A stretch of 51,143 nt of DNA from Faecalibacterium longum CLA-AA-H243 (lineage in GTDB: Bacteria; Bacillota; Clostridia; Oscillospirales; Ruminococcaceae), in contig NZ_JAJEQG010000020.1 in the NCBI RefSeq assembly GCF_020687245.1, positions 1 through 51,143 of the forward strand, in the 5' to 3' direction. The notes below the pieces were generated by a model. It ran no database searches. It was not told where the DNA came from and was given only the letters and a program-made list of their open reading frames with translations. The position numbers were made by a program, and so were the translations under genes. How positions within the stretch are numbered: position 1 is the stretch's first letter; each line of letters starts with the position of its first letter. Of this stretch, positions 9,975 through 49,780 are shown one piece after another.

Positions 9975-10064
9975 GCCGGAAAAGGCATACTATTTCCTAC
10001 TCTGCGTGTCTGTTTTTCACAAGAAGAACCGTCGCCGTGTACCCACATTTGGTGCAGCTGTCAC

Positions 10065-10093: not shown

Positions 10094-10114
10094 ATTCTTG
10101 TTATCCGGAACAAG

Positions 10115-10164
10115 GGCGTTCCAGATGAGTCTTTGCCGACCCATCTGGGACGCCTTTTCTTTTT
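10115..10164 (+). terminator. intrinsic terminator inside the gltB leader (possible attenuator)
   Basis: The stem is formed by 13 bases, GGCGTTCCAGATG (10115-10127) with CATCTGGGACGCC (10142-10154), one pair being G-U, followed by TTTTCTTTTT. It lies between the gltB promoter and the gltB start, with no gene in between. Transcription into gltB must therefore read through it or start elsewhere. A second small hairpin (CTGCGG/CCGCAG, about 10186-10202) follows. The rest of 9975-10249 is unremarkable. Confidence 0.85.
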
Positions 10165-10249
10165 ACCGGCATTAAGAGGGACTCTGCGGAATGTGCCGCA
10201 GCATTGCCAGGATATTCTCCGGAAAATCGAAAAAAGGATGGGAAAGTCT

Positions 10250-14785: not shown

Positions 14786-14798
14786 GGAGGGGAACATC

Positions 14799-25435: not shown

Positions 25436-27049
25436 TTATGCTCCCTTCTCGGAAATTCCTTCAAAAATTTCCGCACCATCGTAGGTTGACACAGCCTTGA
25501 GCTGTTCCACTTGGTTGAAGCTGGCGTTCAGGGTGATCGAGATTTCGTAGTCTTTTCGGACACGAATCTCCGCAATGAACTGCTGCAAGATAGCGCGGCG
25601 TTCATCGTGGTTGGCGGTGTCGTACACATCCGCCCATGTAAACAGCTCGTTGCAGATGTAGTTGCTGCGCTTTGCCGTTTTGGTGGCTTCTTCGTATTCT
25701 TCCTGCGCCTGAACAAGCTGCTTTTCCAGAGTTTCCAAAGCCTCTCTTGCCTCGGCTACCAGTGTACCCAGCAGTTCTTTGTCCAAGGCACTTACGCCCC
25801 GGATGACCAGAATGGTTTCGGCTTTCAGGTCGTCCAGTTCTTTCTGCTTGCTTTCCAAGTCTTTCTGGATTTTCTTGACCTTCTTCTGGATGCGGGCGGC
25901 ATCGTTGGTCTTGACCGATTCCAGCAGCTTCTTCCGGGAAACTTCCCGGAACTGTGCGAAGATCTGCCGGACAACTTCTTCCACGATGGAATCCAGCTTG
26001 GAAACACCGTAGCCAGACTGCCCATCGCAGTCACCCGGATGCCGGATCTTATAAAAGCAGCTATACCGGGGCCGGACTTCTTTCACCGTATGCCCATCGG
26101 CGTAGGTGTGTGTCCGTCCGCTGCTGGTCAGGCTCAAGCGGTTGCCGCAGTGACCGCAGTAAACCAGCCCGGTCAAAAGGGCTTTGGAGCTGGTGCCCAG
26201 TGAAGTGCCGCCACGCTCACAAGTGCGTGCCTGCCGCAGTTCCTGTGCCTGCTCGAACAATTCTGGTTCAATGATGCGGAGCTGTGGGCACTCGGCTTCC
26301 ACTGCACCATTGATAAGGTAGCCCGTGTATCCTTTGTTCTTGATCATCCGAACGATGCTGGTGTTGGGGATATTTTTGTTGTTCCGTCCTACGACTCCCT
26401 GTTCATAAAGATAGTGGCTCAACTTCTGTGCGCCGTAGCCCTCGTAAACGTACTTGTGGAAAATCAGCCGGACGATCTCAGCTTCCGCTTCGTCGATCAC
26501 AAGGTCACAGACCTCTTGATTTTTCTTGTTCACCCGACCAAGGCGGACACGCTTGTAGCCAAAAGCCACGGTGCCGCCCGTGTAGTGACCTTCCCCGGTG
26601 AGCTGTTCCAGCCTTGTCCGGGTACGGACAGAGGTTTTCAGACTCTCGCCGGATGCCTGCCAGTAGCGGATGTAGTTCATCAGCTTGTCCACATGGGTGT
26701 CGAACCGCTGCTGTCCCTCGTTCACGCTCCAGACCTCGATGCCCTGCTTCGTGAACCATTCCACGATAAAGGGCGTTTCATCATCACGGCGACCGAGACG
26801 GTCAAACATGAACACCAGCAGAATGTCAAACTTGCCCTCCATCGCGGCCTGTTGAATTTTCTGGAGTTCGTCACGCTCTTTGGCAGACTTCTTAAAGCCG
26901 GAAACGCCTTTTTCGGAAAATTCCTTGACGATCTCCCAGCCCTGACTTTCTGCAAAGTTGCGGCAGGCTTCTTTCTGCATGGGGATGTCGTCTTTCTCGA
27001 CCTGTCCCTTTGTCGAAACACGGTATAAGGTATAAACGCGTTTTTTCAT
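25436..27049 (-). CDS. large serine recombinase (TnpX/integrase type)
   Basis: This 537-residue enzyme should cut and join the element's ends. The N-terminal resolvase domain has catalytic Ser12 in YRVSTKGQ, GVSGFKKSAKERDELQ and FDRLGRRDDE. A recombinase domain follows (NIPNTSIVRMIKNKGYTGYL, about residues 245-265), then a zinc ribbon (YCGHCGNRL with SCFYKIRHPGDC) and a coiled coil (about 385-455). ATG 27049 is chosen at MKKRVYTLY; the ribosome site is weak (AAGTGAG). The gene is closest to the left end of the element, as expected for an integrase next to its attachment site. GC content drops here relative to the chromosome. Confidence 0.92.
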   Translation of the reverse strand: MKKRVYTLYRVSTKGQVEKDDIPMQKEACRNFAESQGWEIVKEFSEKGVSGFKKSAKERDELQKIQQAAMEGKFDILLVFMFDRLGRRDDETPFIVEWFTKQGIEVWSVNEGQQRFDTHVDKLMNYIRYWQASGESLKTSVRTRTRLEQLTGEGHYTGGTVAFGYKRVRLGRVNKKNQEVCDLVIDEAEAEIVRLIFHKYVYEGYGAQKLSHYLYEQGVVGRNNKNIPNTSIVRMIKNKGYTGYLINGAVEAECPQLRIIEPELFEQAQELRQARTCERGGTSLGTSSKALLTGLVYCGHCGNRLSLTSSGRTHTYADGHTVKEVRPRYSCFYKIRHPGDCDGQSGYGVSKLDSIVEEVVRQIFAQFREVSRKKLLESVKTNDAARIQKKVKKIQKDLESKQKELDDLKAETILVIRGVSALDKELLGTLVAEAREALETLEKQLVQAQEEYEEATKTAKRSNYICNELFTWADVYDTANHDERRAILQQFIAEIRVRKDYEISITLNASFNQVEQLKAVSTYDGAEIFEGISEKGA

Positions 27050-27166
27050 TGCATTCTCACTTTCTTTTGGCGAGAAAAGCAAAATCAAACGGATATTGTC
27101 CATATCAGGTTTTCAAGGTTCAGTTCGATTTTATCTTATCTCACGCAGTTAAGGAATACAAGGATG

Positions 27167-32369: not shown

Positions 32370-32444
32370 AGAATTCTTCTAGAATCTTTGGTGAACAACT
32401 TCTCACAGACATTTAATGCTCCGCATCGCATACGCTGAATTTTG

Positions 32445-34193: not shown

Positions 34194-35978
34194 TTAGGCT
34201 CCCTCCTTTGCAGTGTGTACTTTCCATTCGGCACTGTCCTGTGCGGCTTTCCACAATTTCTGATATTCAGGGCAGGAGCGAATCAAATCCTGATGCTTAC
34301 CCGCTGCTACCAATTTTCCGTGGTCGATGACACAAATTTGATCGGCATTCATAATGGCGGGCAGTTTGTGAGCAATCACCACGAGGGTCTTGCCTTTTAC
34401 AAGTTCTGCAATGGCTGCTTCCATCTTTTCTTCATTTTCGGGGTCAGCATAGGCTGTTGCTTCATCAAGAACTACAATGGGGGCATCCTTTAAGATTGCT
34501 CGCGCCAGAGAAATACGCTGACGCTGACCGCCGGAGAGCATTTTTCCCGCATCGCCTGCCATGGAGTGAATGCCCTGCGGAAGTTTTTCAATGAACTCCA
34601 TGCACTGAGCTTTCTTTGCGGCCTCTATTACTTCTTCATCCGTTGCAGTCAACCGACCGAGCCGGATGTTTTCCAGTAGAGAAGTATTAAACAAATACTG
34701 ATCCTGCGCCACATAGGAGATACGACTGTTCAATGCTTCAAGGCTCATATCGCAAAGTTTCTGTCCGCCGATGGAAATGCTGCCCTTTTGCGGGTCATAA
34801 TAGTGAATCAGCAGTTTTGCCAAGGTACTCTTGCCGGAGCCAGATTCACCGACAAGAGCAGTTTTTTGTCCAGCCTTTGCCGTAAAGGAAATATCATGGA
34901 GAACTTCATCCTCAACCACTGCGGGCTTTCCATCCGGGCCGGGCTGTGTTGTCTGGTAAGCGAAAGAAACATGGTCGTAAGTAACGGTGTCATCTATTCC
35001 ATGGAATCTATCATCCGTCTGCTGAAGTTCCGGCGCATCCAACACCTGCTCCAATGCGGAGATTTTATAGTTGAGCTGGGGCATGGTTGGCAGAAAGCCA
35101 AGAGATTTCAGCAGCGGCATACCGATACTCAAAGAAAGACACAGCACCAAAATCAAATTGGGCAGAGTCGACCAGCCGCAGAGGACAAACCATGCACCCA
35201 CAGGCAGGGTCAGGATGATGGTACAAGGAAGCAGGCTGCTGTAAATCGCCATCCACGGCCATGCCGCCCTATACCATGCCAGTGTATAGTTCCGATAATC
35301 TGATATATCTTTGCGGAACCGTTCGTAAGAATCTGCGTCTTTATTGAAAACCTTGACGACTTCCATACCGTTGATGTACTCAATAATGGTATTGTTCATC
35401 TTTTGCCCGGCCATATAGTAAGGTCCCATTTTCTTCATACCAACGGAATACATCGTCATCATGGCAACTAAGCTAAGTGGAATGGATGCCAAAGATAACA
35501 GTGCCAGCTTCCAGTCTACAAAGAACATTGCCACATAAACTGCAATGGGAGCCATCAGGTTGGCGATGCCCTCCGGCATAGAGTGTGCCAGCAGAACTTC
35601 CAGACTGTCTACATCGTCCACGAACAGCTTTTTCACGGTGCCAGTGCCTTTGTCCTGAATAACACCCAGCGGCAGTTTTTCAAACCGTTTTTGCAGAGCC
35701 GTCCGCAGGCGGAGCAGCGTGTCATAAGCTGCTTTATGAGAGAGATTCAGGCCCCAGCCATAGAAAAGAGCTTGCAGCACCAGACATACCAAGACCAGTA
35801 TGACATGCTGGATGATAAAGGAAGCAGTGATTGCCTCCCCCATGACCAGCGGTGCAATTACCTGATATGCCAGCACAAAGGGAAAAACACCCAGCAGAAC
35901 ACTGACCAGTACAACGACCGTGGCCACATACATATTTTTCTTATATGGCCCTGCGTACTCAAAGATTTTTTTGAACAT
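34194..35978 (-). CDS. ABC half-transporter, YbtP/Q-IrtA-like (first of pair)
   Basis: This 594-residue protein has an N-terminal membrane domain (about 15-300) and an ATPase domain with GESGSGKSTLAKLL, LSGGQRQRISLARAILKD and IVVLDEATAYADPENEEKM. The ATAYADPEN variant after Walker B is typical of the YbtQ/IrtA side of importer pairs. It lacks the siderophore-interacting domain of mycobacterial IrtA. ATG 35978 has AAGGAGGG upstream. A terminator (36012-36050) separates it from the ECF genes, so a second promoter or read-through drives it. Confidence 0.85.
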   Translation of the reverse strand: MFKKIFEYAGPYKKNMYVATVVVLVSVLLGVFPFVLAYQVIAPLVMGEAITASFIIQHVILVLVCLVLQALFYGWGLNLSHKAAYDTLLRLRTALQKRFEKLPLGVIQDKGTGTVKKLFVDDVDSLEVLLAHSMPEGIANLMAPIAVYVAMFFVDWKLALLSLASIPLSLVAMMTMYSVGMKKMGPYYMAGQKMNNTIIEYINGMEVVKVFNKDADSYERFRKDISDYRNYTLAWYRAAWPWMAIYSSLLPCTIILTLPVGAWFVLCGWSTLPNLILVLCLSLSIGMPLLKSLGFLPTMPQLNYKISALEQVLDAPELQQTDDRFHGIDDTVTYDHVSFAYQTTQPGPDGKPAVVEDEVLHDISFTAKAGQKTALVGESGSGKSTLAKLLIHYYDPQKGSISIGGQKLCDMSLEALNSRISYVAQDQYLFNTSLLENIRLGRLTATDEEVIEAAKKAQCMEFIEKLPQGIHSMAGDAGKMLSGGQRQRISLARAILKDAPIVVLDEATAYADPENEEKMEAAIAELVKGKTLVVIAHKLPAIMNADQICVIDHGKLVAAGKHQDLIRSCPEYQKLWKAAQDSAEWKVHTAKEGA

Positions 35979-36011
35979 AAGCCCTCCTTATATTAAGCCG
36001 TACTGTCTGTG

Positions 36012-36050
36012 CTTCAAAAACAAGAGGCCGCCAAAGTAAAGCGGCCTCTT
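36012..36050 (-). terminator. terminator after the ECF operon
   Basis: On the minus strand AAGAGGCCGC-tttactttg-GCGGCCTCTT is followed by GTTTTTG. It lies between the fused ECF ATPase gene and the ABC half-transporter pair. Confidence 0.88.
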
Positions 36051-36104
36051 ATCATTATCTTTCTGTCCAGTCAAGGCGGCCCTGACATTCATAATTTCTA
36101 AAAT

Positions 36105-37571
36105 TCACTGGCGGATTCGAAAAAAATCCAAAACCTTTTTACTGCCGGATTCGTCCAATGGATAGCTTTCTTTTATTTGCCCTTTTTCCATATGGACTAC
36201 ATACGAACATCCCGCCATCACCAACTCCGGATCATGCGTAATAACAAGAAGCGTTTTGCCCTGATCCGCGAGTGACTTCAAACTCCGCGCAACTTCCCGC
36301 ATATGTTTGAGATCAAGCCCGCTGGTTGGTTCGTCAAACACAATGATCTCCCGGTTACTCACAATGGCAGATGCGATCGCTACCCGCTGTTTTTGCCCGC
36401 CGGAAAGAGAAAGCGGGTGCCTGTCTTTATATTCCAGCAGATCAAACTGTTTAAGGATTTCATCTGCAACAGTTTCATCCTCGTTGTCCATGCTCAGAAG
36501 CACTTCATCCGTCACGCTTTCGGTAAATAGCTGATGGCTGGTATCCTGCATTACCATGTAGCAATGTTTGAGCCGGGCTTTCCAATCAAGGGTTTTCCCG
36601 TCAACCTGCAAAAGGCCACACTTCTTTTCCAGTCCGCAAATACAGCGGGCCAGAGTAGATTTTCCAGCGCCATTCAGGCCGATAATGGCAATCGTTTCTC
36701 CAACAGGCAGTTCAGCACTCGGAATATGGAGGCTTTCCGGTTCCCGCTTTTTATACGCAAAGCAGAAATTTTGAAATTCCATCAGTTTAGCTGTATGCGC
36801 CTGATACTGATTCGCGGGTTTCAACTTCGAGAGAGAAAACGGCCGCAGCCCCATTTCTTTTCGAGTGCTATCCGATAAACTGTCAAATTCAGCAGGCGTG
36901 TATTCCCGTTCAATCTCCCCATCTTTTACATACAGCACACGATCTGCAAGATCGTGAAGGTAGTAAAGGCGGTGTTCTGCAATCAGAATTGTTTTGCCCT
37001 GCTTTTTCCAGAGGCTCAAGACCTGCCGCAGGTCATCAATAGCAGCCATATCCAGATTAGAAGATGGTTCGTCAAGGACCATAATTCCCGGTAGCAATAC
37101 ACTTGATGAAGCACAGGCTATTTTTTGCTTTTCGCCCCCGGACAGAGCAAACACGCTCCGCCCCATCAAATCTTCAATATGATAATCGGAAACTGTACGG
37201 TCAATCCTTTTCAGGATATCTTCCTGGGGATAGCCTAAATTTTCACAGGCAAAGGCTAATTCACTATCCGTATCCACGTTGAAAAACTGACTTTTGGGAT
37301 TCTGGAATACAGATCCCACCATAGCAGCCAAGTCATAAAGCGGCGTATCTGATACGCTTTTTCCGTCCAGAAGGACATCGCCCTCTAAATTACCTTCGTA
37401 ATAATGAGGCACCAGCCCGTTTACCAAACGGGTAATCGTTGTTTTCCCGCAGCCGGATTCTCCCGTGAGTAAAACAAATTCCCCTGTGTTTATGGTGAGA
37501 TTGACATTTCTAATCCCTCCGCCGCTGGACTCTTCACCATAAGAAAAAGAAACATTTTGAAAATCTATCAT
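36105..37571 (-). CDS. fused ECF transporter ATPase (EcfA1-EcfA2 in one chain)
   Basis: This 488-residue protein has two ABC ATPase domains. The first has GESGCGKTTITRLVNGL, LSGGEKQKIACASSS and MVLDEPSSNLD (residues about 30-180). The second has GLNGAGKSTLARCICGL, LSGGQKQRVAIAS and IVFDEPTSGLD (about 290-440). Both Walker motifs and signatures look intact. It would power an energy-coupling factor importer with the T and S proteins upstream. ATG 37571 overlaps the stop of the T gene by 4 bp. It is the last gene of the ECF unit before a terminator. Confidence 0.9.
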   Translation of the reverse strand: MIDFQNVSFSYGEESSGGGIRNVNLTINTGEFVLLTGESGCGKTTITRLVNGLVPHYYEGNLEGDVLLDGKSVSDTPLYDLAAMVGSVFQNPKSQFFNVDTDSELAFACENLGYPQEDILKRIDRTVSDYHIEDLMGRSVFALSGGEKQKIACASSSVLLPGIMVLDEPSSNLDMAAIDDLRQVLSLWKKQGKTILIAEHRLYYLHDLADRVLYVKDGEIEREYTPAEFDSLSDSTRKEMGLRPFSLSKLKPANQYQAHTAKLMEFQNFCFAYKKREPESLHIPSAELPVGETIAIIGLNGAGKSTLARCICGLEKKCGLLQVDGKTLDWKARLKHCYMVMQDTSHQLFTESVTDEVLLSMDNEDETVADEILKQFDLLEYKDRHPLSLSGGQKQRVAIASAIVSNREIIVFDEPTSGLDLKHMREVARSLKSLADQGKTLLVITHDPELVMAGCSYVVHMEKGQIKESYPLDESGSKKVLDFFRIRQ

Positions 37572-38320
37572 GGCAAAATCCCTCCTGCGGAAATTATCGG
37601 GGAAGCAATCGCCCAAACCACTACAAAGCAACAAAACAAGATCAGCACCACATCGGCAAAACTGAATTTAAGCTGGCAAATGTTTGTGCGTTTGACAGGA
37701 GCGCCGAGGCCACGGGTAATTGCCGCGGCGGAAAGTTCCTCACCGATTTTCACGGAGCAGGTAATCATCGGGATCAGCTTATACTCCAATATTTTTGAAG
37801 GTTTTTTCCCTCCAAGTTTAATCCCACGCATTTTCATAGCGTCACTGATTGCTTCTGACTCCTGAATGACAGTTGGAAAGAAGCGGAACATGACCGTTAA
37901 GGGGATCGTCACTTCTTTAGGCATATGGATTCTTTCCATGCCGGAAATCAATTCACTGACCGTTGTTGTTTTCACTGCATAGGCAGCAATCGCAACACTG
38001 GGAAGGATTCGGCAGAAGAATCCTGTTGTAAACAGAACGAGGAAATTCAATATTCCCGTAAGGTGCGGCAAAACATAAATTTGAACAGCATAAAAAGCAG
38101 AAAACATAGCAATATAGCCCACAGCTTTTGCACATTGTTTCGAGGTAAGCAGCAATATAGCCGGAACCGTACAAAGAACAAGGCGGATCAGCCCCATAGC
38201 TTCTCCGCCTGTTCCACCCATGACAAAAATGCTTATGATGAAGATGAGCAACAGTTTTGTACGCGGATCGAGCCGTAGCCCTTGTTCTGTTTTTTTGCTG
38301 AGCAGAATTTCCCGCGCCAT
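37568..38320 (-). CDS. ECF transporter T component (EcfT/CbiQ family)
   Basis: This 250-residue membrane protein has about five hydrophobic segments and the coupling-helix signatures of EcfT: MFRFFPTVIQESEAISDAMKMRGI and SVKIGEELSAAAITRGLGAP, whose Ala-Arg-Gly-type motifs dock to the ATPases. ATG 38320 shares its A with the TAA stop of the S component (TAATG), and the stop overlaps the ATPase start (ATGA), so all three are translationally coupled. It links substrate capture to ATP hydrolysis in the membrane. Confidence 0.9.
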   Translation of the reverse strand: MAREILLSKKTEQGLRLDPRTKLLLIFIISIFVMGGTGGEAMGLIRLVLCTVPAILLLTSKQCAKAVGYIAMFSAFYAVQIYVLPHLTGILNFLVLFTTGFFCRILPSVAIAAYAVKTTTVSELISGMERIHMPKEVTIPLTVMFRFFPTVIQESEAISDAMKMRGIKLGGKKPSKILEYKLIPMITCSVKIGEELSAAAITRGLGAPVKRTNICQLKFSFADVVLILFCCFVVVWAIASPIISAGGILP

Positions 38321-38916
38321 TATGCAATACCGGCACGCTGGAAGTGCTTTTTGCAAATGGCTTTCCCAATCATACCTCCGACAAGGCCAAACACAAAGCA
38401 GGCAACCAGCAGAATAGGCGCAATCCACATAGGCATATATGTATTAAGGGTAGCTGCATATTCAGCGCCGTATCCTTCAGTCAACATTACCATATAGCTT
38501 TCACGGTTCAGGAAAATGGGAGCAAAGTTGCCAAACACCCAGATGCTGAACACGCCGCAGGAAAGAACTGTACTCTTTGCACTTTTGTAGTCCGCCTTTT
38601 TCAGAATCACGTCGGCCAACAGGCCGCCAACAAGACCAGTTACCATAGTAAGATAGCCGTTGCCGAAGAACACCATGATTAGGCCAATCAGGAAACCCAT
38701 GATTGCAGTCATCCCGAATTTTTTAGCCTTTGTAACATACAGCATATAGGGGATGCCGCCAATCAAAGGGCACAGCACCGCCATCAGCGGAATAAAAACG
38801 GGGATAAAGCCAAGCATCGCCACCAGCATAACAATCACGACATAGATGACGGTGTAGATGCCGATAGTAATTAAATCTTTTCCCTCAAGCCGGGAACTTT
38901 TTTTCTGGGAACTCAT
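38320..38916 (-). CDS. ECF transporter S component, MptD (Trep_Strep) family
   Basis: This 198-residue integral membrane protein has about five or six helices after a short charged N-terminus (SSQKKSSRLEGKDLITIGIY). VFIPLMAVLCPLIGGIPYML and GLVGGLLADVIL fit the MptD family of substrate-binding subunits. The S component sets specificity; in this family it is mostly unknown, although metal-chelate uptake is suspected from context. AAGGAGG precedes ATG 38916. Expression is likely driven by the promoter at 38986-39014 under AraC control. Confidence 0.85.
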   Translation of the reverse strand: MSSQKKSSRLEGKDLITIGIYTVIYVVIVMLVAMLGFIPVFIPLMAVLCPLIGGIPYMLYVTKAKKFGMTAIMGFLIGLIMVFFGNGYLTMVTGLVGGLLADVILKKADYKSAKSTVLSCGVFSIWVFGNFAPIFLNRESYMVMLTEGYGAEYAATLNTYMPMWIAPILLVACFVFGLVGGMIGKAICKKHFQRAGIA

Positions 38917-38949
38917 ACCAGTATCCTCCTTATCTCTGAGAAAATGAAA

Positions 38950-38985
38950 ATGTGGTGTGGTTAGCTTCCTCTAATCACACCACAT
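38950..38985 (-). terminator. terminator of the araC-type gene, overlapping the ECF promoter start region
   Basis: On the minus strand a 15-base arm (38985-38971) pairs with 38964-38950 with one wobble or mismatch, followed by TTTCATTTTC. The expected ECF transcript start (about 38979) lies inside its first arm, so only transcripts coming from araC would form the whole hairpin. Confidence 0.7.
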
Positions 38986-39045
38986 ATAATAGCAATTTGC
39001 GCCCACGATTCCAACCCAAAACCAATTTTATTCTACCCAAAATCA
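38986..39045 (-). promoter_or_regulatory. ECF operon promoter with AraC-type direct repeats
   Basis: Read leftward: TTGGAA (39014-39009), 17 bp, TATTAT (38991-38986). Two direct repeats, TGGTTTTGGGT and TGATTTTGGGT (39024-39014 and 39045-39035), are spaced exactly 21 bp and abut or overlap the -35. This is the layout of an AraC-activated promoter. Confidence 0.7.
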
Positions 39046-39057
39046 GTATTTTTGCAT

Positions 39058-40023
39058 TTATCCAATCGTAGCTTTTGCTTTATAGTTTTTCGGATTCACT
39101 CCGTATTTCCTTTTGAACGCCGCTGCGAAATTGCTCGCTTTTGAATATCCCACCAGTATAGCCACCTGGCTGACATTCAAATTACTTTCTAACAGCAGGC
39201 TTGCTGCCTTTTCTAACCGCTGGTCGATGACATACGCATGAACCGATGTTCCGAACAGGGAGGAAAAGCCCTTCGTCAATTTTGAAGTGCTGATATTGAC
39301 CTGCCGCGCCAATTCCTCGCAGCTCGGAGCCAGGGCAAGCTGGCTGTCAATAATTCGCTTTGCCTCTATGATGGAATCCCGGTCACTTCTGGAAATTGCA
39401 ACGTAGGTTGACGCGAGAATACTCAGCTCCAGGACCTCGCTCAAATATACCGATAGCAGCTCAAAGACCTTGCTTTCCAGAAACAGGTATCCCAACCCGC
39501 CGCGATATTGCGTGAAGTCTTGCAGCTCCGCAAAAATGTGTTCCATATAGGGCGTGATATTCACCTTTGATATGCCGTCCAATAATTTTTTCTGATAGAC
39601 CTCGATCTCACCAGCCTCAAAGTAGTCATTCAGAATCTTATAGAAATAGGATAGAGGTATTTTCACATTTTTGAAAAGGAAATCGCTCTTTTTAGAATAG
39701 CACAGATATTCCATTTTCCCGTGGCCGCGATAAATACAGGATTCACCCTTTTGTATGCTGGCACTTTGCCGGTTGTCTGCAATATTCCAGGAAACACCGT
39801 CATTGAAGCAGAACAGCATTTGTATGTATTCTTCACTGCTCACTCCCTGCACGTTCATATCCGAAAAGTAATTCATTCTCCAGTCTGAAACAACTGCTCC
39901 CTGTTTCGTGACGATCTGCGAAATCTGACCGGTTCCCATGTCTGTCGGAATATCTATGGTGATCGTCTGCGGTGAATTAGAGAGCAGATCACGATAAAGA
40001 TTATTCATGTATTGATTTGTCAT
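39058..40023 (-). CDS. AraC-family transcriptional regulator (PchR/YbtA-like)
   Basis: This 321-residue regulator has an N-terminal ligand-sensing part and a C-terminal double helix-turn-helix (about 220-318) with CEELARQVNISTSKLTKGF, SLFGTSVHAYVIDQRLEKA and VAILVGYSKASNFAAAFKRK, ending YGVNPKNYK. Regulators of this layout (PchR, YbtA) sense siderophores and switch on their uptake genes. AAGGAGGG precedes ATG 40023. It has its own promoter and terminator, and direct repeats downstream are its probable target. The ligand is not known from the sequence. Confidence 0.88.
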   Translation of the reverse strand: MTNQYMNNLYRDLLSNSPQTITIDIPTDMGTGQISQIVTKQGAVVSDWRMNYFSDMNVQGVSSEEYIQMLFCFNDGVSWNIADNRQSASIQKGESCIYRGHGKMEYLCYSKKSDFLFKNVKIPLSYFYKILNDYFEAGEIEVYQKKLLDGISKVNITPYMEHIFAELQDFTQYRGGLGYLFLESKVFELLSVYLSEVLELSILASTYVAISRSDRDSIIEAKRIIDSQLALAPSCEELARQVNISTSKLTKGFSSLFGTSVHAYVIDQRLEKAASLLLESNLNVSQVAILVGYSKASNFAAAFKRKYGVNPKNYKAKATIG

Positions 40024-40360: not shown

Positions 40361-41749
40361 TTATCGGGACTTCGTTTTTTCTGCGCTGCTCTTTTCCTCT
40401 GCAAAGAACAGTTCTACATTTCTCTTTGCACGAAGAAGCTCCTGCATTTCTTCTTTCGCTTTTCGATAGTCCGGGTAGCGTGCTTTCTTTTCTGTCAGCA
40501 GGTTGGAATAATCCGCGTCTAACTCTTTGACCTTGGGAAGCGTTCTCAAATTGGATTCATCAAATGCTGCCTTCGCCGCCTTGTGCAGCGTGATTTCTTC
40601 CCGGTGGGCTTCCAGAAATCTCTTACTGTACCCGGCTTTGCGGTAGGCATCATAAACCGGACGTGTCCGGGCGTAATTGACGATGTGCGTCCGCAGCACG
40701 GCAATCTCGGCCATGCGCGCTTCTGCAGCTTTAATGGAATCGCCCAACTCGTGATAGCGAGCAGTTGCTGCATCTACACGTTCTTGCATTTCTTTAATGC
40801 TGCCGATTTTATGCTCCTGTAAGAAAATCAGCGTCTTGGACATTTCTTTCAGATTATATCGCTTTGCCCAGCGAGCATACCCCATGCTCTTTCCCTCGGC
40901 CAGCTTTGCCTGAATGTCCACCAGCATCTGAAACTTTTGTTCCGGTACGATGCGGTTCTGCTTTTGCCGGGGATGGTGTTCGACTTCTCCAGAGATAACC
41001 ACTTTCAGTTCTTCTTCGCTGTATCCTGCACCCAAAGTGCGGAACCGGATGAATCGTTTCTGCCGTGTGCCTTTGACGGAGGTGTATTTCCCTCGCTTGA
41101 CCTCGTATCCCTGCTGCTCCAGCTTTTGCAGAAAATCTTCGTAGTCTTTGGGTTTTTCCGCCAGAATGTTGTCGATCACGCCGCATAGACAGTCACGATT
41201 GCTTTCTTTGGGCGAATAAAGTGTGCGCTTCTGCCGCTCCCGATAGGGTTTTATCTCAATGACGGAAAGCTGATGCTCTAAGCAGATCAGATCGCTCAAC
41301 CGTTGCACAGCCAGCCCGGACAATAAAAAATCCCGGAATTTCCGGGTGCTGTCCAACGCAGTGGAGTTGTAGATAATGTGATTATGAATGTGTTCCCGGT
41401 CCGTGTGGGTTGCAACGATAAACGCATACTTGCCTTTGGTGAAACGCATTGCCAGCTCATAACCCACCTTGTTGGCTTCTTCGGCGGTGATCTCGCCGGG
41501 TTTGAACGACTGCCGGATCTGATAGGCAATCACGTCACTTTTTTGTCTGCGCCCAGTGACAAGTTCATACTGCCGTTTGGACAGCATAAATTCTTCATCC
41601 ACCGTCAAAGGACTGCATTCGTAGCTGCTAATCAGTTCGCCATGCTCAGTCTTGTCGGGATTCTGTACATAGTCTGTACGGCTTTTCAGACAGGCCGCAA
41701 CCGACTTGCCTTTGTTTTTGTGCAGCGCGATCAGCCGTGTTGCGGCCAT
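40361..41749 (-). CDS. relaxase/mobilization nuclease (MOB-P type)
   Basis: This 462-residue protein nicks one strand at oriT and leads it into the recipient cell. The candidate catalytic tyrosine is Y27 (SRTDYVQNP). The metal-binding histidine cluster is THTDREHIHNHIIYNS (about residues 114-129), the HxH of relaxases. The C-terminal part is helical and charged (about 310-460). ATG 41749 has GGGGGTGA upstream. The MobC accessory protein is nearby, with a membrane protein between them. The family fits MobP relaxases of Tn1549-like elements. Confidence 0.92.
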   Translation of the reverse strand: MAATRLIALHKNKGKSVAACLKSRTDYVQNPDKTEHGELISSYECSPLTVDEEFMLSKRQYELVTGRRQKSDVIAYQIRQSFKPGEITAEEANKVGYELAMRFTKGKYAFIVATHTDREHIHNHIIYNSTALDSTRKFRDFLLSGLAVQRLSDLICLEHQLSVIEIKPYRERQKRTLYSPKESNRDCLCGVIDNILAEKPKDYEDFLQKLEQQGYEVKRGKYTSVKGTRQKRFIRFRTLGAGYSEEELKVVISGEVEHHPRQKQNRIVPEQKFQMLVDIQAKLAEGKSMGYARWAKRYNLKEMSKTLIFLQEHKIGSIKEMQERVDAATARYHELGDSIKAAEARMAEIAVLRTHIVNYARTRPVYDAYRKAGYSKRFLEAHREEITLHKAAKAAFDESNLRTLPKVKELDADYSNLLTEKKARYPDYRKAKEEMQELLRAKRNVELFFAEEKSSAEKTKSR

Positions 41750-42197: not shown

Positions 42198-42530
42198 TTA
42201 TAGCTCTGCCAGCTGGGAAAGAATTTGCTTGCCAATGTCAATCAGTTCATCCAGACGCTGCCGCAGATCTTCCATGTCGGCGGCGTAGACCTTGCCGCAC
42301 TCGTTGGCACGCTTGGCGTACTGATTCAGATTGTTGCTACAATTCTGGAGCAGATAAGCCATTCGGCGTAGCTGCGGCAGATCGAGATTTAGGCAGTATC
42401 CATCCAATGCCATTTTGCGGATATAGGCACTCAAGCTGCGGATGCCCATGCTGAACATCTTTTCATAGATGCGGTTCTTTTCTGTTTTGGTCAGGCGCAG
42501 GATGATGATTTCATCCCGTTTCTCTTTCAT
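42198..42530 (-). CDS. mobC: MobC-like relaxosome accessory protein
   Basis: This 110-residue basic protein has a ribbon-helix-helix-like N-terminus (IIILRLTKTEKNRIYEKMFS, then GIRSLSAYIRKMAL) and the MobC signature LRRMAYLLQNCSNNLNQYAKRAN. MobC widens the oriT melted region for the relaxase. ATG 42530 overlaps the helicase stop codon (ATGA), so it is translationally coupled to that gene. The gap after it holds the oriT candidate. Confidence 0.9.
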   Translation of the reverse strand: MKEKRDEIIILRLTKTEKNRIYEKMFSMGIRSLSAYIRKMALDGYCLNLDLPQLRRMAYLLQNCSNNLNQYAKRANECGKVYAADMEDLRQRLDELIDIGKQILSQLAEL

Positions 42531-45500
42531 CGTGCATCACCATCCTTATCATAGTAGCTGCGGAACGGTTTGACAGGCTCCGACTGATTGGTCTTTTCCC
42601 CCAGTGCAGCCAGCACAGACGGACGAGTTGCAGGTGTTTCGGTTTCCTCGGTTTCTTCGGGAGCATCCTGCGAGGAACTGCGGTCACGGTCGATGTTCAG
42701 CAAGGCGTTCAATTCAGCAAGGCGGGCAGACTTTTCGGCCAGTTCTTCCTCCTGTGCAAAGGGCTTTGCCACTTCGACCTCTGCGGCCTGCTTCTGCTGT
42801 TCAAGGTTTTGCAGAGCATTTTCGGCATCTGCAATACGGTCAGCGAAATTGTCGATGGCATTGTCCAGACGAGTGATATTGCCGCGCGCATCATCGCCCA
42901 GCGACACCGGGTAACTCAACTCTGCCCGGAGTACGGCCTGATGCTCATTTTTGAAGCTGTCGAATCGAATGTTCAGTTCAAAGCCACGGTAGGTGCCCAG
43001 CAGCATCATATCAGCATTGGGCATCTCCTGCCGAGCCAGCAGCAGCCGTTCGCCTGCAGCCTTTTTGTCATCGTACACCATGCCCTTGATGGTCATGCCG
43101 CAGAAGTTTTCTTTGTCCTGCGGGTGTGTTGCTGCAATATGTGAATCCTGTTGTAAAGCAGCAATGCGGGTTTTCTGTTTCTGGATCTCCTCCGGGAAAG
43201 TTTTGAGCAGCTTATCCTCCAGACGATATTTCTGATTCTGGAAGTCTCCGCGCAGCACCTTCAATTTTGCTACCTGCACGTCCAAGTCCATCTTTTCCCG
43301 GATGCGAGGGTCGCCTGCACACAGAGCCTTGATTTCTGCGTAAGATAAAGCCTGTTCGTCAATATCATCGCAAGATCGCATAGGCGATTTGCTCGTCATG
43401 ATCTGCGAGATAAACTTCTGTTTATTCTCAAGGGTCTGATAGAGGTAGGCGTCAAATGTCGATTCCGTGACGTAGTTATAGACGTAAACTTGTTTGTTTT
43501 GGTTGCCTTGGCGGATGATTCTGCCGTTACGCTGGGTCATATCGGACGGACGCCAGCCTACATCCAGATGATGCACCGCTACGAGCAGCGTCTGGACGTT
43601 GGTGCCAGCTCCCATCTTTGCAGTGCTGCCCAGCAGCACACGCACCTGTCCGCTGCGTACCTTGGAGAAAAGTTCTGCTTTCTTGTTCTCTGTATCTGCG
43701 TTGTGGATGAACTCGATCTCCTGTTCGGGCACACCGGCGTTGAGCAGCTTGGTGCGAATATCATCATAGACGTTGAACGAACCGTCCCCCTTGGGAGTAG
43801 ACATATCGCAGAAAATCAACTGGGTCAGCTTCTGCTCCTTGGTGTCGTTCCAGATGCGCAGGACGTTGTTGACGCAGGCGTTCAGCTTGCTGTTGGGGTC
43901 ATCGGGCAGAGCGGAATTCATCAACCGCTGGTCAAGCCCGATTTTGCGGCCATCCGATGTGATTTTCAGCATATTGTCCACCGAGGGGTCAACAGAACCG
44001 CTGTGGACTTCGGCTGCACGTTCGCTCAACGCCTGCACCATATCCTGTTGGATTTCCGAAGGCTTGACCACCACCGTCTCAAATTTTGCATCAGGCACCG
44101 GGAGATGAAGCTGGTCGCTGGTCTTGATATCTGCTGCTTCTTTGAACATCGCCATCAGTTCAGGCAAGTTGAAGAACTTCGCAAAACGAGTGCGTGCACG
44201 GTATCCGGTGCCTTCGGGCGCAAGTTCGATGGCAGTAGTAGTTTCACCAAAAGTAGAAGCCCACGCATCAAAATGGGTCAACCCTTTCTGCTGCAAGGTG
44301 TTGTACTGGAGGTAGCGCATGAGGGTGTACATCTCGGTCATACTGTTGCTCAGGGGTGTACCCGTTGCAAAAATCACGCCACGGCCACCGGTGATTTCAT
44401 CCAGATAGCGGCACTTGCCGAACATATCGCTGGATTTTTGTGCCTCGCTCGTACTCAAACCTGCGACATTACGCATTTTCGTATACAAGTAGAGGTTCTT
44501 AAACGCTTGGCTCTCATCCACAAACAACCTGTCTACGCCCAATTGTTCAAACGTAACCACATCATCTTTACGGTCTGCGCCTTGCAGCTTTTCTAGTTTC
44601 TGTTTCAGAGACTTGCGCAGCTTTTCCAGTTGCTTTACTGTGAAATGCTCGCCAACCTGTGCTTTCGCTTCTTCGATGGCCTCCTCGATTTCATCCATCT
44701 GTTCCTGAATCAGACGCTCCTGTCGTTCTGCGGACAAGGGTATCTTTTCAAACTGGCTGTGTCCGATGATAACTGCATCATAATCACCGGTCGCAATTCT
44801 CGCACAGAATTTTTTTCGATTACCGGGTTCAAAATCTTTCTTGCTGGTAACCAGCAGCTTCGCATTGGGGTACAGACGTAAAAACTCGCTGGCCCATTGT
44901 TCCGTCAAATGGTTTGGCACGACAAAAAGACTTTTCTGACACAAGCCCAGACGTTTCAGTTCCATAGCTGAAGCCGCCATCTCAAAACTCTTGCCAGCAC
45001 CGACTTCGTGCGCCAAAAGGGTGTTGTACCCATACAGCACATGGGCAACCGCATTGCGCTGATGCTCTCGCAAATTGATCTCCGGGTTCATGCCCACAAA
45101 ATGAATGTGACTACCGTCATACTCACGGGGGCGGGTGCTGTTAAAAAGCTCGTTGTACTTTTTTACCAGTAGGGCGCGTCGCTGTGGATCTTTCCAGACC
45201 CAGCCAGCAAATGCGTCCTTGATGGCCTGCTGTTTCTGCTGGGCGAGGGTGGTTTCGTTTTGATTCAGCACACGCTTTTCTTTCCCATTCTCCTCGATGG
45301 TATCATAAACGCGGCTGTCACGCAAATTCAAGGTATCCTCCAAAATCTTGTAGGCGTTGGCTCGGCGGGTACCGTAGGTTTCAGTGGCCATAATGTCACC
45401 AAAGCCAGTAGCAGATTTATTGCTGATCCGCCATTCGGAAGTGTAAGGGGAGTAGCGAACGGTGATGGCATTGTTGTAGCGGATACGATAGGGCGGCTGA

Positions 45501-48500
45501 AAAGTTTCCATCATAAACTGTTGTACGATAGAGGGGTCAAGCCATGTGGCACCCAAACGCACATCAATTTCAGATGCCTCCAGATCTTTGGGCTGTGCCT
45601 TGGTCAGTGCGTCCACATTAACCTTGAACTCCGGGTGACTTTCCGCAGCAAGCTGTGCCATCCGCAGCTTATCGCGTACATTACCCGAAAGGTATTCGTC
45701 CGCAGTCTGCCAGCCCGCTTCCGGGTCGGTGGGGTCGGCGGCAGGGTCCTTGAAGATCACACCAGACAATTCAGTGGTGATGCGCCCGTACTCGTCGGGT
45801 GTGCCCAGCAGTTCTGCCATATAGGGCAAGTCCACCTTGCCATGCTCCCCGATGGACACCGCCAACGCTTCACTGGGGGTATCCACGCTGGTAACGGTGC
45901 GCTCCGGGCGAATCGTCCGTTTCGTGAACATCGCTGCCTTAGATTTAAGCTGCCCCTGCTCGTCCAGATTTTCCAGCGAACACAGCAGATAGTAGGAGGA
46001 ATCCTGCTCAAATAGCCGCCCGTTTTTGCGGTCGTTCAGCAGACCGTACTTTGCGGTAAAGGCATCGTAGGCGGCGTTCAGCTTTGCCTGTGTCTCCTTA
46101 ATGTCCTCGTCCGGGAAGTCGTTCAACTGCTGGTCGATCAGGTCATTGACGATCTGCCGCAGCTCCACCATGCCGGTGACACGCCCCTTGGCGGTTTCGG
46201 ACAGTTCCACCTGTGTCATCACGGAATTTTCCCGGTAGAACACTTTGCCGTCCACCACGGTGTAGGAGAAGTTCTTGACCTCCGGATCAGCAGGGAGCGT
46301 CTTGCGCTCTGCCTCGGCATCCGCAATATCTGGCGTTTCCACCTCGACTTCGGTGTACTGACCCTCAATATGCTGTACCGCCTCGGCAAGCTGGTCTGCA
46401 AGGCTGGTACCTTCAAGGGGCGCAACGGTCAGGTCGTGACCGTATTGGGTGCTTTCCAGTTCCAAATTTCCCAGCACCATCTCCGGGTGGTCTACGAAAT
46501 ACTGGTTGATGGCAAAGCCATCCTCCGTTTTGCCCAACTGCACCCATGCAGGCTCAATGTCCGCAGGGCGGTCACGCTTCTGCAAAAAGATAATGTCACT
46601 GACAACATCCGTGCCAGCGTTGGCACGGAACGCATTATTTGGCAGACGGATGGCACCCAACAGATCGGCACGTTCTGCCATGTGCTTGCGGGCGGTGCTG
46701 TCCTTACTGTCCATGGTGTAACGGCTGGTGACGAACGCCACCACGCCGCCCGGACGCACTTGGTCGATGGCTTTCGCAAAGAAATAATTGTGGATGGAGA
46801 ATCCCAGCTTGTTGTACGCTTTATCGTTGACCTTGTACTGACCGAAAGGTACGTTGCCCACCGCTAAATCGTAGAAATCACGGCGGTCGGTGGTTTCAAA
46901 GCCAGCCACGGTAATGTCTGCCTGCGGGTACAGTTTTTTCGCAATACGCCCGGTGATGCTGTCCAGTTCCACACCGTACAGGCGGCTGTCCTGCATAGAG
47001 TCCGGCAGCATCCCGAAAAAGTTTCCCACACCCATGGACGGTTCCAGAATGTTACCACTGCGGAAACCCATGCGCTCCACGGCATCGTAAATGCCACGGA
47101 TCACGGTGGGGCTGGTGTAGTGGGCGTTCAGGGTGCTGGAACGGGCGGCGGCGTACTCGTCCTCGGAGAGCAGCCCTTTCAGTTCCGTGTACTCTTTTGA
47201 CCAGTTGCTCTTATCCGGGTCAAAGGCATCCGGCAGACCGCCCCAGCCCACATACTGCGAAAGCACTTCCTGTTCCTCGACGGTGGCTCCACGGTGTTCC
47301 TGTTCCAACTGAAACAGGGTGCGGATAGCTGCAATATTCCGGGCGTATTTCTGCTTTGCACCGCCCTCGCCCAAATGCTCGTCCGTGATGTGGAAATTCC
47401 CGGCAGCTTCCGGCGCAGATTCAGCATTCAGGGCTTCATCCAAGGCAGTAGCATCCGGGAAGGTCTGCACTTTTCCGTCCATCACGGCAGAAATGGGCAG
47501 CGCATCCAGTTCTTCGTCCGTCAGCTCCGGCATGACCTGCCGCAGACCGTCCTCGAATTGTTGCTTATTGATTACTTCGTTATCCCACGACTGTCCCTGT
47601 GCGCTGGTGTCAATGCGAACATCCGCTTCGCCTACATAGCCGATTTTGCCTTCGATGGTTCGGGTAGGAAGGTCTACCACAACATCGTCCCCGACCTTAT
47701 AATCAACGGCCTTTTCGGGAGCAGCGTCAAGGGCCTCGTCCTGCTGTTCGTACAATTCCCGGACAACAGATAGCGGTTCTTCCCGAAAAATTGGCACCCG
47801 CAGGTCGGCCAGTGCCATATCCTGCAAGGAAACCTTGCCCTTATCAAAATCCACTCCGTCAATCCGAAATTTCCGGCCATCCATATTGATGATGGAGCCG
47901 ATGGGCAGATAGTCCTCTTTGTGCAGATGTTTAGTCTGGTGATGAGTCCCATCTTTGTTCAATCCGGCAAGGTAAACATCATTGCCCGCAGACCACAATT
48001 CTTTTGACTTTCTTGCCCATAAGATAGGTGGAAAGCCTGTGACCTGAACTTCGCCCAGTGCTGTTTCTCTCGTAAACAAAGCACTGTTGAGAACTTTTGC
48101 GACCTTGGCAGCATCTTCTCCATAGAACATAAAATTGCCGCCAGCTTCAAATCCAACCAGAGTATCCGGGTGCTGCGCCTTTAATGCAGTGTATTCGGCT
48201 GCACTGGCGGCGTTCAGTTCAAGGGGAAAGTCGATGGCTCTTCTTTCTTTGTCCGACAGGTAGCGGTCAGACTGAATCATCAGGTCAATATATTTTTCGA
48301 CCCGATCCCAGCGGAGAAGCACTTTCTGATGGTCGGGATAATGCTCAAACGTCAGACCCTTGCTGTCATGGTCAAGCCAACCACTGCTTCCGTCCAGATA
48401 AGTGTGTGAAGAACCGCCGGGGCCATACGGTGCATATTCTTTGGCAAGAGCTTTTGCCCGGAGTTTTCGGTCAGGCTGCAACTGATAAATTTTCCATATC

Positions 48501-49780
48501 CGAAGTTTGCTGCCTTCAACATTGGAACCTCTCCGCAGCGCATTTTCAATCTCCGCCTGCGACAAAACAAAAGCGGAGGGCGATTTTTTGCCCTCCGCTT
48601 GGTCGATGGATTCAATTTGTTTGGCTTCGGTGGGAATGTGGGCATCGAAGAAACTTAACTGTAAATCAGTTCGTTCAGCACCAGTTCCTCTGCCTGTGCC
48701 CGCAGGCTGTTCATGTGCTGCACCCACGCCAGCTGATTCTGCTCCTTGTCCGGGGCCGGGGTCTGTTTCAAAAGCTGTGCCATGGTCTGCTGCATCCGGC
48801 TCTCTGCCGTCTGCTCCACCTCCATCAGGTGCGGGTACAGGCTCCCATTCAGGAGCATCGTGTGGTACAGCACCGGGCGATGCTCCTTCAGGTACGTCCG
48901 GCGCAGCCTGCCGTACTTGCCCAGCGGCTTCCGGGGCTGGTTCAGGGTCAGGTTCGGGAGAAGGTAATCCCCGACGGTCGAGTAGGTCACGTTCCTGCTG
49001 TTCGTATTCATATTGGCTCCTTTCTGCATTGCGGCGGCGAATGGTAGTTTTCACGGTGCGCTCGATGTTCCGCAGCACCTCCCGGCTCATGTCGCTGACG
49101 GCTGCGCCGAGGGCGTAGACACTATCCGGGGTGGAGAAATTGTAGATTGCCTGAAAATCGTCCTTGTCGAACCACCCGGCAGGCTCAAAGCCACAGCGTT
49201 CCAGCAGCGTGTAGGTGACACTGATGGTGGCGGCGCTTTTGAACTGCATCTCCACTCCGGCTTCATCATAATCCATCAGAAGCGAACCGTCAACGATGGC
49301 GAGAATGTCACCACTGTTGTTGTCCCAGTAATCTGCCACCAGTTTCCCGGCAACATCCGCAAGCTGCTGGCTGACACGCTCCCCGCTGATGCCGTAGGTC
49401 TTGCTCAACATTTCCGAAACCGGCTGTTTCAGGTCGTCATTGTACTGCCACATCTCCGGGTCACGGGAATTGCGGCGCACCCCGGTGTCGCTTACGTCAA
49501 AAACGTAGTGCAGTCGAGGGAATCCGCTGGATTCGTCCAGCAGAGCGATGCCCTTAGAGCCACGCCTGACATAGCGGTTCATCCGGTTGCGCCAAATGTC
49601 AAATTCGGCGCAGGCGGTGGCATCGGGCCGCTGAGCGTAGATCATGAGCTGGTCTGCAAAGGGGTACTTGTACAGCCGAGATGCGGTGGTCAGGTAGTCC
49701 GTCCAGCTTTCCCAGTACCGGGTCAAGCCGTTGGCCGTGCGCTGGGCAAGGGCGAGGTATTCTTCGGTTTTGCTTGGCAT
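42527..49780 (-). CDS. giant methylase-helicase polyprotein of the mobile element
   Basis: This 2417-residue protein has an ArdC-like N-terminal region (residues 1-250) and a Pro/Gly/Ala-rich linker (about 257-390). After middle domains comes an adenine-methylase-like part (ILEPSMGVGNFFG about 913; GNVPFGQY about 977). A SNF2/DEAD-type helicase follows (AHEVGAGKSFEM about 1593; FVDESQAF about 1753; NGRIIRQGNQNKQVYVYNYV about 2093), then a coiled-coil tail. AAAGGAGG precedes ATG 49780. Such proteins are typical of Tn1549-like elements and may protect or unwind transferring DNA. The linker coincides with tnpV in another frame. Confidence 0.92.
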   Translation of the reverse strand: MPSKTEEYLALAQRTANGLTRYWESWTDYLTTASRLYKYPFADQLMIYAQRPDATACAEFDIWRNRMNRYVRRGSKGIALLDESSGFPRLHYVFDVSDTGVRRNSRDPEMWQYNDDLKQPVSEMLSKTYGISGERVSQQLADVAGKLVADYWDNNSGDILAIVDGSLLMDYDEAGVEMQFKSAATISVTYTLLERCGFEPAGWFDKDDFQAIYNFSTPDSVYALGAAVSDMSREVLRNIERTVKTTIRRRNAERSQYEYEQQERDLLDRRGLPSPEPDPEPAPEAAGQVRQAAPDVPEGASPGAVPHDAPEWEPVPAPDGGGADGREPDAADHGTAFETDPGPGQGAESAGVGAAHEQPAGTGRGTGAERTDLQLSFFDAHIPTEAKQIESIDQAEGKKSPSAFVLSQAEIENALRRGSNVEGSKLRIWKIYQLQPDRKLRAKALAKEYAPYGPGGSSHTYLDGSSGWLDHDSKGLTFEHYPDHQKVLLRWDRVEKYIDLMIQSDRYLSDKERRAIDFPLELNAASAAEYTALKAQHPDTLVGFEAGGNFMFYGEDAAKVAKVLNSALFTRETALGEVQVTGFPPILWARKSKELWSAGNDVYLAGLNKDGTHHQTKHLHKEDYLPIGSIINMDGRKFRIDGVDFDKGKVSLQDMALADLRVPIFREEPLSVVRELYEQQDEALDAAPEKAVDYKVGDDVVVDLPTRTIEGKIGYVGEADVRIDTSAQGQSWDNEVINKQQFEDGLRQVMPELTDEELDALPISAVMDGKVQTFPDATALDEALNAESAPEAAGNFHITDEHLGEGGAKQKYARNIAAIRTLFQLEQEHRGATVEEQEVLSQYVGWGGLPDAFDPDKSNWSKEYTELKGLLSEDEYAAARSSTLNAHYTSPTVIRGIYDAVERMGFRSGNILEPSMGVGNFFGMLPDSMQDSRLYGVELDSITGRIAKKLYPQADITVAGFETTDRRDFYDLAVGNVPFGQYKVNDKAYNKLGFSIHNYFFAKAIDQVRPGGVVAFVTSRYTMDSKDSTARKHMAERADLLGAIRLPNNAFRANAGTDVVSDIIFLQKRDRPADIEPAWVQLGKTEDGFAINQYFVDHPEMVLGNLELESTQYGHDLTVAPLEGTSLADQLAEAVQHIEGQYTEVEVETPDIADAEAERKTLPADPEVKNFSYTVVDGKVFYRENSVMTQVELSETAKGRVTGMVELRQIVNDLIDQQLNDFPDEDIKETQAKLNAAYDAFTAKYGLLNDRKNGRLFEQDSSYYLLCSLENLDEQGQLKSKAAMFTKRTIRPERTVTSVDTPSEALAVSIGEHGKVDLPYMAELLGTPDEYGRITTELSGVIFKDPAADPTDPEAGWQTADEYLSGNVRDKLRMAQLAAESHPEFKVNVDALTKAQPKDLEASEIDVRLGATWLDPSIVQQFMMETFQPPYRIRYNNAITVRYSPYTSEWRISNKSATGFGDIMATETYGTRRANAYKILEDTLNLRDSRVYDTIEENGKEKRVLNQNETTLAQQKQQAIKDAFAGWVWKDPQRRALLVKKYNELFNSTRPREYDGSHIHFVGMNPEINLREHQRNAVAHVLYGYNTLLAHEVGAGKSFEMAASAMELKRLGLCQKSLFVVPNHLTEQWASEFLRLYPNAKLLVTSKKDFEPGNRKKFCARIATGDYDAVIIGHSQFEKIPLSAERQERLIQEQMDEIEEAIEEAKAQVGEHFTVKQLEKLRKSLKQKLEKLQGADRKDDVVTFEQLGVDRLFVDESQAFKNLYLYTKMRNVAGLSTSEAQKSSDMFGKCRYLDEITGGRGVIFATGTPLSNSMTEMYTLMRYLQYNTLQQKGLTHFDAWASTFGETTTAIELAPEGTGYRARTRFAKFFNLPELMAMFKEAADIKTSDQLHLPVPDAKFETVVVKPSEIQQDMVQALSERAAEVHSGSVDPSVDNMLKITSDGRKIGLDQRLMNSALPDDPNSKLNACVNNVLRIWNDTKEQKLTQLIFCDMSTPKGDGSFNVYDDIRTKLLNAGVPEQEIEFIHNADTENKKAELFSKVRSGQVRVLLGSTAKMGAGTNVQTLLVAVHHLDVGWRPSDMTQRNGRIIRQGNQNKQVYVYNYVTESTFDAYLYQTLENKQKFISQIMTSKSPMRSCDDIDEQALSYAEIKALCAGDPRIREKMDLDVQVAKLKVLRGDFQNQKYRLEDKLLKTFPEEIQKQKTRIAALQQDSHIAATHPQDKENFCGMTIKGMVYDDKKAAGERLLLARQEMPNADMMLLGTYRGFELNIRFDSFKNEHQAVLRAELSYPVSLGDDARGNITRLDNAIDNFADRIADAENALQNLEQQKQAAEVEVAKPFAQEEELAEKSARLAELNALLNIDRDRSSSQDAPEETEETETPATRPSVLAALGEKTNQSEPVKPFRSYYDKDGDAR
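48655..49011 (-). CDS. tnpV: TnpV-family protein, overprinted inside the helicase gene
   Basis: This 118-residue ORF lies on the same strand as the helicase gene, shifted by one base. The residues GKYGRLRRTYLKEHRPVLYH (about 36-55), NQLAWVQHMNSLRAQAEE and LVLNELIYS match the TnpV family of transposon-encoded proteins, as does the N-terminal YSTVGDYLLPNLTL. It has its own ribosome site, AAAGGAG, 5 bp before ATG 49011. In the helicase frame the same DNA encodes a low-complexity linker. The function of TnpV is unknown. Both frames appear to be used. Confidence 0.8.
   Translation of the reverse strand: MNTNSRNVTYSTVGDYLLPNLTLNQPRKPLGKYGRLRRTYLKEHRPVLYHTMLLNGSLYPHLMEVEQTAESRMQQTMAQLLKQTPAPDKEQNQLAWVQHMNSLRAQAEELVLNELIYS

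Follow-up and report, generated by a model that had tools for sequence, protein, structure and literature searches.

The window analysed here, a 51,143-nucleotide stretch from Faecalibacterium longum CLA-AA-H243 (contig NZ_JAJEQG010000020.1), carries a complete tnpV gene inside the gene for a giant polyvalent methylase-helicase. In the window's list of open reading frames (ORFs), the TnpV ORF (118 amino acids [aa] plus a stop codon) lies wholly within a 2,417-aa helicase ORF, on the same strand and in the +1 frame, and this nesting, noticed in the initial annotation, is confirmed (Table 1). The Pfam match to the TnpV family (PF14198) scores 127.1 bits (E = 3.7e-37; cut-off, 27 bits) and covers profile positions 1 to 111 of 111. 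The first ATG of the ORF is at 49029; the ribosome-binding site, AAAGGAG, precedes the ATG at 49011 and, in the helicase frame, is part of Glu-Arg(AGG)-Ser.

In the helicase, Pfam recognizes SNF2-rel_dom (40.6 bits) and Helicase_C (25.6 bits), both above cut-off, and an Eco57I methylase match of 21.8 bits that falls below its cut-off of 25.3. The G-W-G-G motif of the core, by which the stretch is called LPD36-like, is invariant across nine aligned core sequences. Pfam ArdcN finds no match in the window helicase or its Virgibacillus homologue; a Listeria homologue, aligned to the window's N-terminal domain, passes ArdcN (26.9 versus 22.6 bits). Together, MutS_I, SNF2, Helicase_C, and the weak Eco57I match, followed by genes for a NikA-like protein and a relaxase, represent the make-up of polyvalent methylase-helicase proteins. 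The dyad described by Iyer et al. (2017, PMC5512222), of which phage P1 DarB is the archetype, has in common with the window helicase the MutS-I domain, the GWGG core, the SNF2 ATPase, and the mobile-element context, and the main text of that paper contains neither "TnpV" nor "overlapping." P1 DarB differs in that its start is so near the core that a nested gene would not fit upstream, and it was rejected as a nested host.

Nested tnpV among conjugative and plasmid helicases

Relatives were collected from genome contigs with the helicase N-terminus as the query and were not selected for an open helicase frame. Among the best 80 of 325, 78 keep both frames intact across the whole of tnpV, at the same position and in the same frame, which, with the Pfam match, bears out the earlier claim of a complete, conserved tnpV with its own AAAGGAG. 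At L084, the contig end cuts the locus just past the tnpV start, and at L095, both genes are present and damaged near the contig end (the helicase frame has a stop, and tnpV runs off). Stop codons in the tnpV frame of close homologues, which the initial annotation had named as a sign against the overlap, were not seen. Judged by record title, the hosts are mostly Clostridia, with one Collinsella, and the source genome alone holds eight TnpV genes, of which four are nested and the other four free-standing. Further full-length helicase matches lie outside the sampled sets (e.g., G471, with a 4,028-aa frame).

Nested tnpV also occurs in distant plasmid helicases from Virgibacillus, Carnobacterium, two Listeria species, and Cohnella. 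An snf2-type helicase on a Streptococcus agalactiae plasmid (L136, 4667 to 5087) contains a 140-aa +1 ORF with a weak, 16-bit TnpV match. A phylum survey found an N-terminal match in 31 of 398 genomes, many of them partial; among 30 phylum loci examined (one being the window), TnpV was recognized in L149 to L163 (L163 at just 26 bits) and weakly in L168, while the full helicase L175 and 13 partial N-terminal matches are without it. Viral-contig relatives were gathered with the methylase core as the query (best 80 of 271), and 14 of them have an ArdC-type N-terminus. A TnpV match at E ≤ 0.01 is present in 12 of the 14; L199 has a streptococcal-type 140-aa +1 ORF at the same place (from 3853), none above the TnpV threshold, and L205 has none. 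In the viral contigs L127 and L128, the helicase is broken at or before the linker. Comparison of these sequences demonstrates common ancestry of the overlap within conjugative and plasmid helicases.

A second TnpV match lies downstream of a nest-bearing helicase in L179 (9967 to 10303), L183 (11267 to 11600), and L186 (9904 to 10240).

Purifying selection on both reading frames

In the +1 arrangement, a tnpV codon that ends in T before AA, AG, or GA creates a helicase stop. Across 63 non-redundant nested genes, drawn at 90% TnpV identity from 100 nested loci that had to show 300 aa or more of open helicase frame, a criterion that biases the set toward an open-frame result, such a T occurs at 1 of 2,026 places, against 235 expected from its frequency elsewhere (11.6%). 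In 32 free-standing tnpV genes, by comparison, T is found at 15.5% of stop-making places, and the helicase-equivalent frame is open in 2 (this set omits matches shorter than 300 nucleotides and L012 to L015, which are duplicates of L001 to L003 and L008). Recoding predicts that 2.6 of the 63 helicase frames would be open by chance.

Start signals of the nested gene are also conserved beyond the window. A strict rule for Shine-Dalgarno (SD) sites is passed by 53 of the 63 non-redundant loci (90 of the 100), against 49 of 6,200 random helicase positions, a background from which L148 was omitted. At these 53 sites, the helicase Arg codon is AGG in 51; AGG makes up only 8.3% of 1,054 upstream Arg codons. 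At 5 of the 100 loci, the rule for choosing the ORF start failed, and counting began instead where the domain starts, with no ATG.

Differences at 4-fold degenerate sites were measured in 21 sequences (17 Faecalibacterium loci, three loci of the source genome, and one phage-labelled gut contig). In the helicase frame, the difference is 0.319 before, 0.049 within, and 0.395 after the overlap, an overlap-to-flank ratio of 0.144 (95% interval, 0.076 to 0.228), or about 7-fold lower. In the tnpV frame, the difference within the overlap is 0.143, a ratio to the flanks of 0.418 (0.267 to 0.597), or about 2.4-fold lower. Constraint on both frames had been proposed from the window alone, and this site-difference test found it on both; an absence of synonymous constraint in the helicase frame would have spoken against the proposal, and the constraint found there is strong.

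Stop avoidance therefore argues for selection on the helicase frame, and TnpV homology, SD sites, and 4-fold constraint argue for selection on the tnpV frame; together, these sequence tests demonstrate purifying selection on both. Mean identity in the overlap, over 1,953 pairs, is 0.505 for TnpV and 0.339 for the helicase, which by this measure makes TnpV the more constrained frame. That TnpV similarity might be a by-product of a conserved helicase frame was rejected because the helicase frame is the less conserved of the two there.

The window's helicase linker in the overlap is rich in Pro, Gly, Ala, Glu, and Asp. In 62 loci (the one with a helicase-frame stop was omitted from the 63), linkers are Cys-free, less hydrophobic, and more acidic than recoded versions, and examples across GC contents from 0.39 to 0.62 have few order-promoting residues. 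The helicase frame thus seems to be held mainly to stay open, disordered, Cys-free, and acidic. Since TnpV is the more constrained frame, these data support the idea, already put forward in the initial annotation and in agreement with the composition and dual-frame tests, that the odd linker is a by-product of TnpV coding, with a mild demand from the helicase side; the overlap would then explain the linker. Under a loose pattern, 47 of 63 helicases have a Q-L-(S/T/D/N)-(L/F)-like motif after the linker (QLSFF in the window), which we take to resemble sliding-clamp-binding motifs.

Viral relatives and the direction of change

The 66 other viral-contig relatives are without an ArdC-type N-terminus. 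The TnpV profile, built before any viral-contig loci were collected, matches 17 of the 66 at E ≤ 0.01, all in the +1 frame and no more than 650 nucleotides before the core, with one stray match; at E ≤ 0.1, there are 31 in-place matches versus 2 elsewhere. A profile of 17 phage ORFs matches 58 of the 66, all in the same frame and place, with its own rows accounting for 17 of the 58. Ranked by length among the +1 ORFs of its gene, the nested ORF comes first in 16 of the 58 and within the top three in 37, and many nested ORFs have a ribosome-site-like sequence before the start, as scored by a lenient rule without a background. Automatic ORF choice was wrong for L193, L197, L187, L217, L232, L254, and L255, which were excluded from analysis A4. 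The 4-fold difference of the phage helicase frame is 0.122 in the nested stretch, 0.520 before it, and 0.546 after it, and the nested stretch lies below both flanks in 105 of 107 pairs, which are not independent (10 of 117 were omitted for too few sites).

The phage nested ORFs were compared with TnpV in several ways. Profile-profile alignment links the two families, at 95.7% over 55 columns (E = 1.1e-8). Against the TnpV cut-off of 27 bits, L190 scores above (33.4 bits) and L219, L202, L220, L226, and L246 below (14.4 to 23.2 bits). AlphaFold models of TnpV and a phage ORF (predicted local distance difference test scores, 88.3 and 87.2) have a similar helix order and share their top BFVD match, Q8W6J4. 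Homology between the two is supported. In the records of the phages BcepMigl, PEp14, VvAW1, and SopranoGao, the giant protein is annotated but a nested gene is not. The phage profile scores 112 to 118 bits in PEp14, VvAW1, and SopranoGao, scores that are not independent because these nested ORFs are identical to rows of the profile or nearly so; the score is 93 bits in PBC5 and no more than 14.8 bits in BcepMigl.

Two further arrangements were seen among viral proteins. In PBC5 (L265, 1886 to 8428), an upstream polyvalent half with a TnpV-like end in frame overlaps a separate 3,260-aa downstream frame, which may be either a natural split or a sequencing indel. PHROG 938, labelled endolysin, matches the nested ORFs of L219, L226, L246, and L241 at the end of its 2,185-position profile and may represent a polyvalent-type protein ending in a TnpV-like domain.

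Whether tnpV occurs outside the helicase locus was a check suggested at the outset, and it does: TnpV is matched in 74 of 148 genomes of the family, where 28 of 30 examined loci are free-standing. Three free-standing copies examined in the source genome adjoin large serine recombinases. Without a root, the tree of 63 nested and 32 free-standing TnpV sequences places 28 of the latter in one cluster (Shimodaira-Hasegawa-like approximate likelihood ratio test, 80), and the other four stand singly among nested ones. When the tree is rooted on eight phage ORFs (nine of the 17 and the long-branched L137, L138, L147, and L148 were omitted), free-standing TnpV still falls inside the nested diversity, with five state changes.

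We interpret the pair, with a probability of about three in four, as an ancient nested arrangement in which one stretch is read twice, both frames are selected, the overlap is ancestral, and TnpV is a partner of the giant protein. Translation starting at 49780 would yield the giant methylase-helicase, and a second initiation on the helicase mRNA, at 49011, by ribosomes bound to the internal AAAGGAG, would yield TnpV. That TnpV is so consistently accompanied by one and the same methylase-helicase module, in conjugative and phage proteins alike, suggests that it is a small partner of the giant protein, probably a helical adaptor, chaperone, or regulator. The giant protein is thought to enter a new host with the DNA, and TnpV, made from the same message, would be moved along with it as one unit.

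A number of observations weigh against this interpretation. Free-standing tnpV can exist apart from the helicase, which bears on the partner role. Ten of the 63 non-redundant loci fail the strict SD rule, five of them with no ATG at the rule-chosen place and some of the others with near-matches such as GAGAGGAG. Streptococcal-type nested ORFs are barely recognizable (L136, 16 bits; L163, 26 bits; L199, sub-threshold), and 8 of the 66 viral loci (L181, L210, L213, L228, L230, L236, L240, and L243) have no nested-profile match. L175, L205, and the Streptococcus phage relative L262, in which there is neither a long +1 ORF before the core nor a profile match, have the core and no tnpV frame; they may represent either a pre-overprinting state or losses. 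TnpV's top BFVD match has an E value of 0.36, and the TnpV-like domain of PBC5 is fused to the upstream half. Finally, the rooted tree has 114 columns, modest support, long phage branches, and 51 of 96 inner branches open, and L190 falls on the wrong side of its root.

The initial annotation had proposed that a free-standing tnpV was once inserted into the helicase linker and was then tolerated by both genes. This now appears unlikely, even though free-standing tnpV is common, the linker is found without tnpV in L175, the unrooted tree by itself is compatible with insertion, and tnpV-carrying elements integrate into snf2 genes of streptococcal integrative and conjugative elements (PMC9815147). 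That integration fits a link to the helicase and proves nothing. Rooting on the phage nested ORFs places the free-standing genes inside the nested diversity as derived, which disfavours insertion, and the frame and place of the overlap are common to distant conjugative and viral-contig proteins. Moreover, because the helicase-equivalent frame is open in so few free-standing genes, most insertions would be expected to disrupt the host gene. On the sequence evidence, we thus clearly prefer an overlap that is ancestral and from which tnpV later escaped, and the weakly resolved tree supports transposon tnpV as an escapee that would have left the overlap several times. In a fuller scenario, whose chances we judge to be even, TnpV arose nested inside polyvalent methylase-helicases before the phage and conjugative branches of these proteins separated, stayed in the same frame as an integral small subunit of the transferred protein, and was taken up on several later occasions by transposons and mobilizable elements; helicase genes of this type are integration sites for some of these elements.

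Much more doubtful than insertion is the idea that the nested frame has no start of its own and is expressed, through programmed frameshifting, as a C-terminal extension of the upstream part. The PBC5 half and the PHROG 938 matches are what it would predict; most nested loci, however, have an SD site and an ATG, a stop codon interrupts the window's tnpV frame 14 codons upstream of the chosen ATG, and free-standing TnpV is a protein of its own. That only one frame is real, the other being an accident of composition or annotation, is scarcely credible, even with long spurious ORFs common in the window and incomplete PLSDB tables that list only TnpV (Cohnella, Monoglobus) or only the helicase (Listeria seeligeri) at three nested plasmid loci (L129, L130, and L139), since stop avoidance in one frame, TnpV homology, SD sites, and 4-fold constraint in the other contradict it, and chance or composition as the source of the overlap was rejected by the homologue, stop-avoidance, and synonymous-site tests.

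Related systems and neighboring genes

Known members of the TnpV family, from Tn4451/Tn6104-type elements, share the full-length profile match with the window protein, and four free-standing members occur in the same genome. They are described as separate transposon genes in the accessible text of PMC3158075 and PMC9815147, whereas the window tnpV is nested in a giant gene. A role in excision is postulated there by homology only (PMC3158075). Foldseek found no fold match to the TnpV model in PDB at E ≤ 0.001, and a sequence search of PDB returned nothing below E = 0.1; a lambda-Xis-like fold for TnpV is neither supported nor excluded.

In the Rz/Rz1 lysis genes of phage lambda, one gene is likewise contained whole within another, on the same strand and shifted to the +1 frame. 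The proteins are unrelated, and the tnpV-helicase pair differs in being spread over conjugative elements, plasmids, and phages. Nested overlapping genes are known as a kind; what we propose as new is the wide spread of this pair and the origin of TnpV. A literature search mostly outside subscription journals and bioRxiv recognized no report of tnpV-helicase nesting, and few long overlapping bacterial genes are fully established (PMC9927249). Because the pair spans Clostridia, Bacilli, one Collinsella, plasmids, and phages of Proteobacteria, dual coding is open to study on well over a hundred natural variants. Through the pair, a transposon family that has lacked an explanation is also connected with anti-restriction proteins believed to accompany DNA on transfer, and annotation tables may list one gene of such a pair and drop the other.

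Table 1. Positions of the nested pair, its domains, and associated genes in the window
Feature	Position	Strand	Evidence
tnpV coding sequence, nested, 118 aa plus stop	48655..49011	-	ORF list, Pfam
tnpV in-frame upstream extension, 6 codons, to alternative ATG	49012..49029	-	ORF list
AAAGGAG ribosome-binding site, 5 nucleotides upstream of ATG at 49011	49017..49023	-	Sequence
Giant helicase (polyvalent methylase-helicase) gene, 2,417 aa	42527..49780	-	ORF list, Pfam
Helicase N-terminal domain, upstream of overlap	49013..49780	-	Aligns with ArdcN-passing domain of Listeria relative
QLSFF, helicase frame, end of linker; overlaps tnpV stop codon	48647..48661	-	Sequence
MutS_I domain, 31.6 bits (cut-off, 20.6)	47966..48196	-	Pfam
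Core: GWGG-motif stretch (LPD36-like) and methylase region	46541..47350	-	Alignment of cores
SNF2-related ATPase domain	44495..45061	-	Pfam
Helicase_C domain	43505..43819	-	Pfam
NikA/MobC-like mobilisation protein, downstream of helicase	42198..42530	-	Pfam
MobA/VirD2-like relaxase	40361..41749	-	Pfam
Large serine recombinase, possibly of same element	25436..27103	-	Domain search

Between the recombinase and the relaxase, positions 31944 to 40023 likely represent cargo: two ABC transporter proteins with membrane domains; a set comprising CbiQ, Trep_Strep, and a double ABC ATPase; an AraC-type regulator; and a response-regulator DNA-binding domain. Elsewhere in the window (10037 to 14812), a 1,582-aa ORF on the plus strand is opposed nearly throughout by a 1,451-aa antisense ORF, which is probably an effect of composition.

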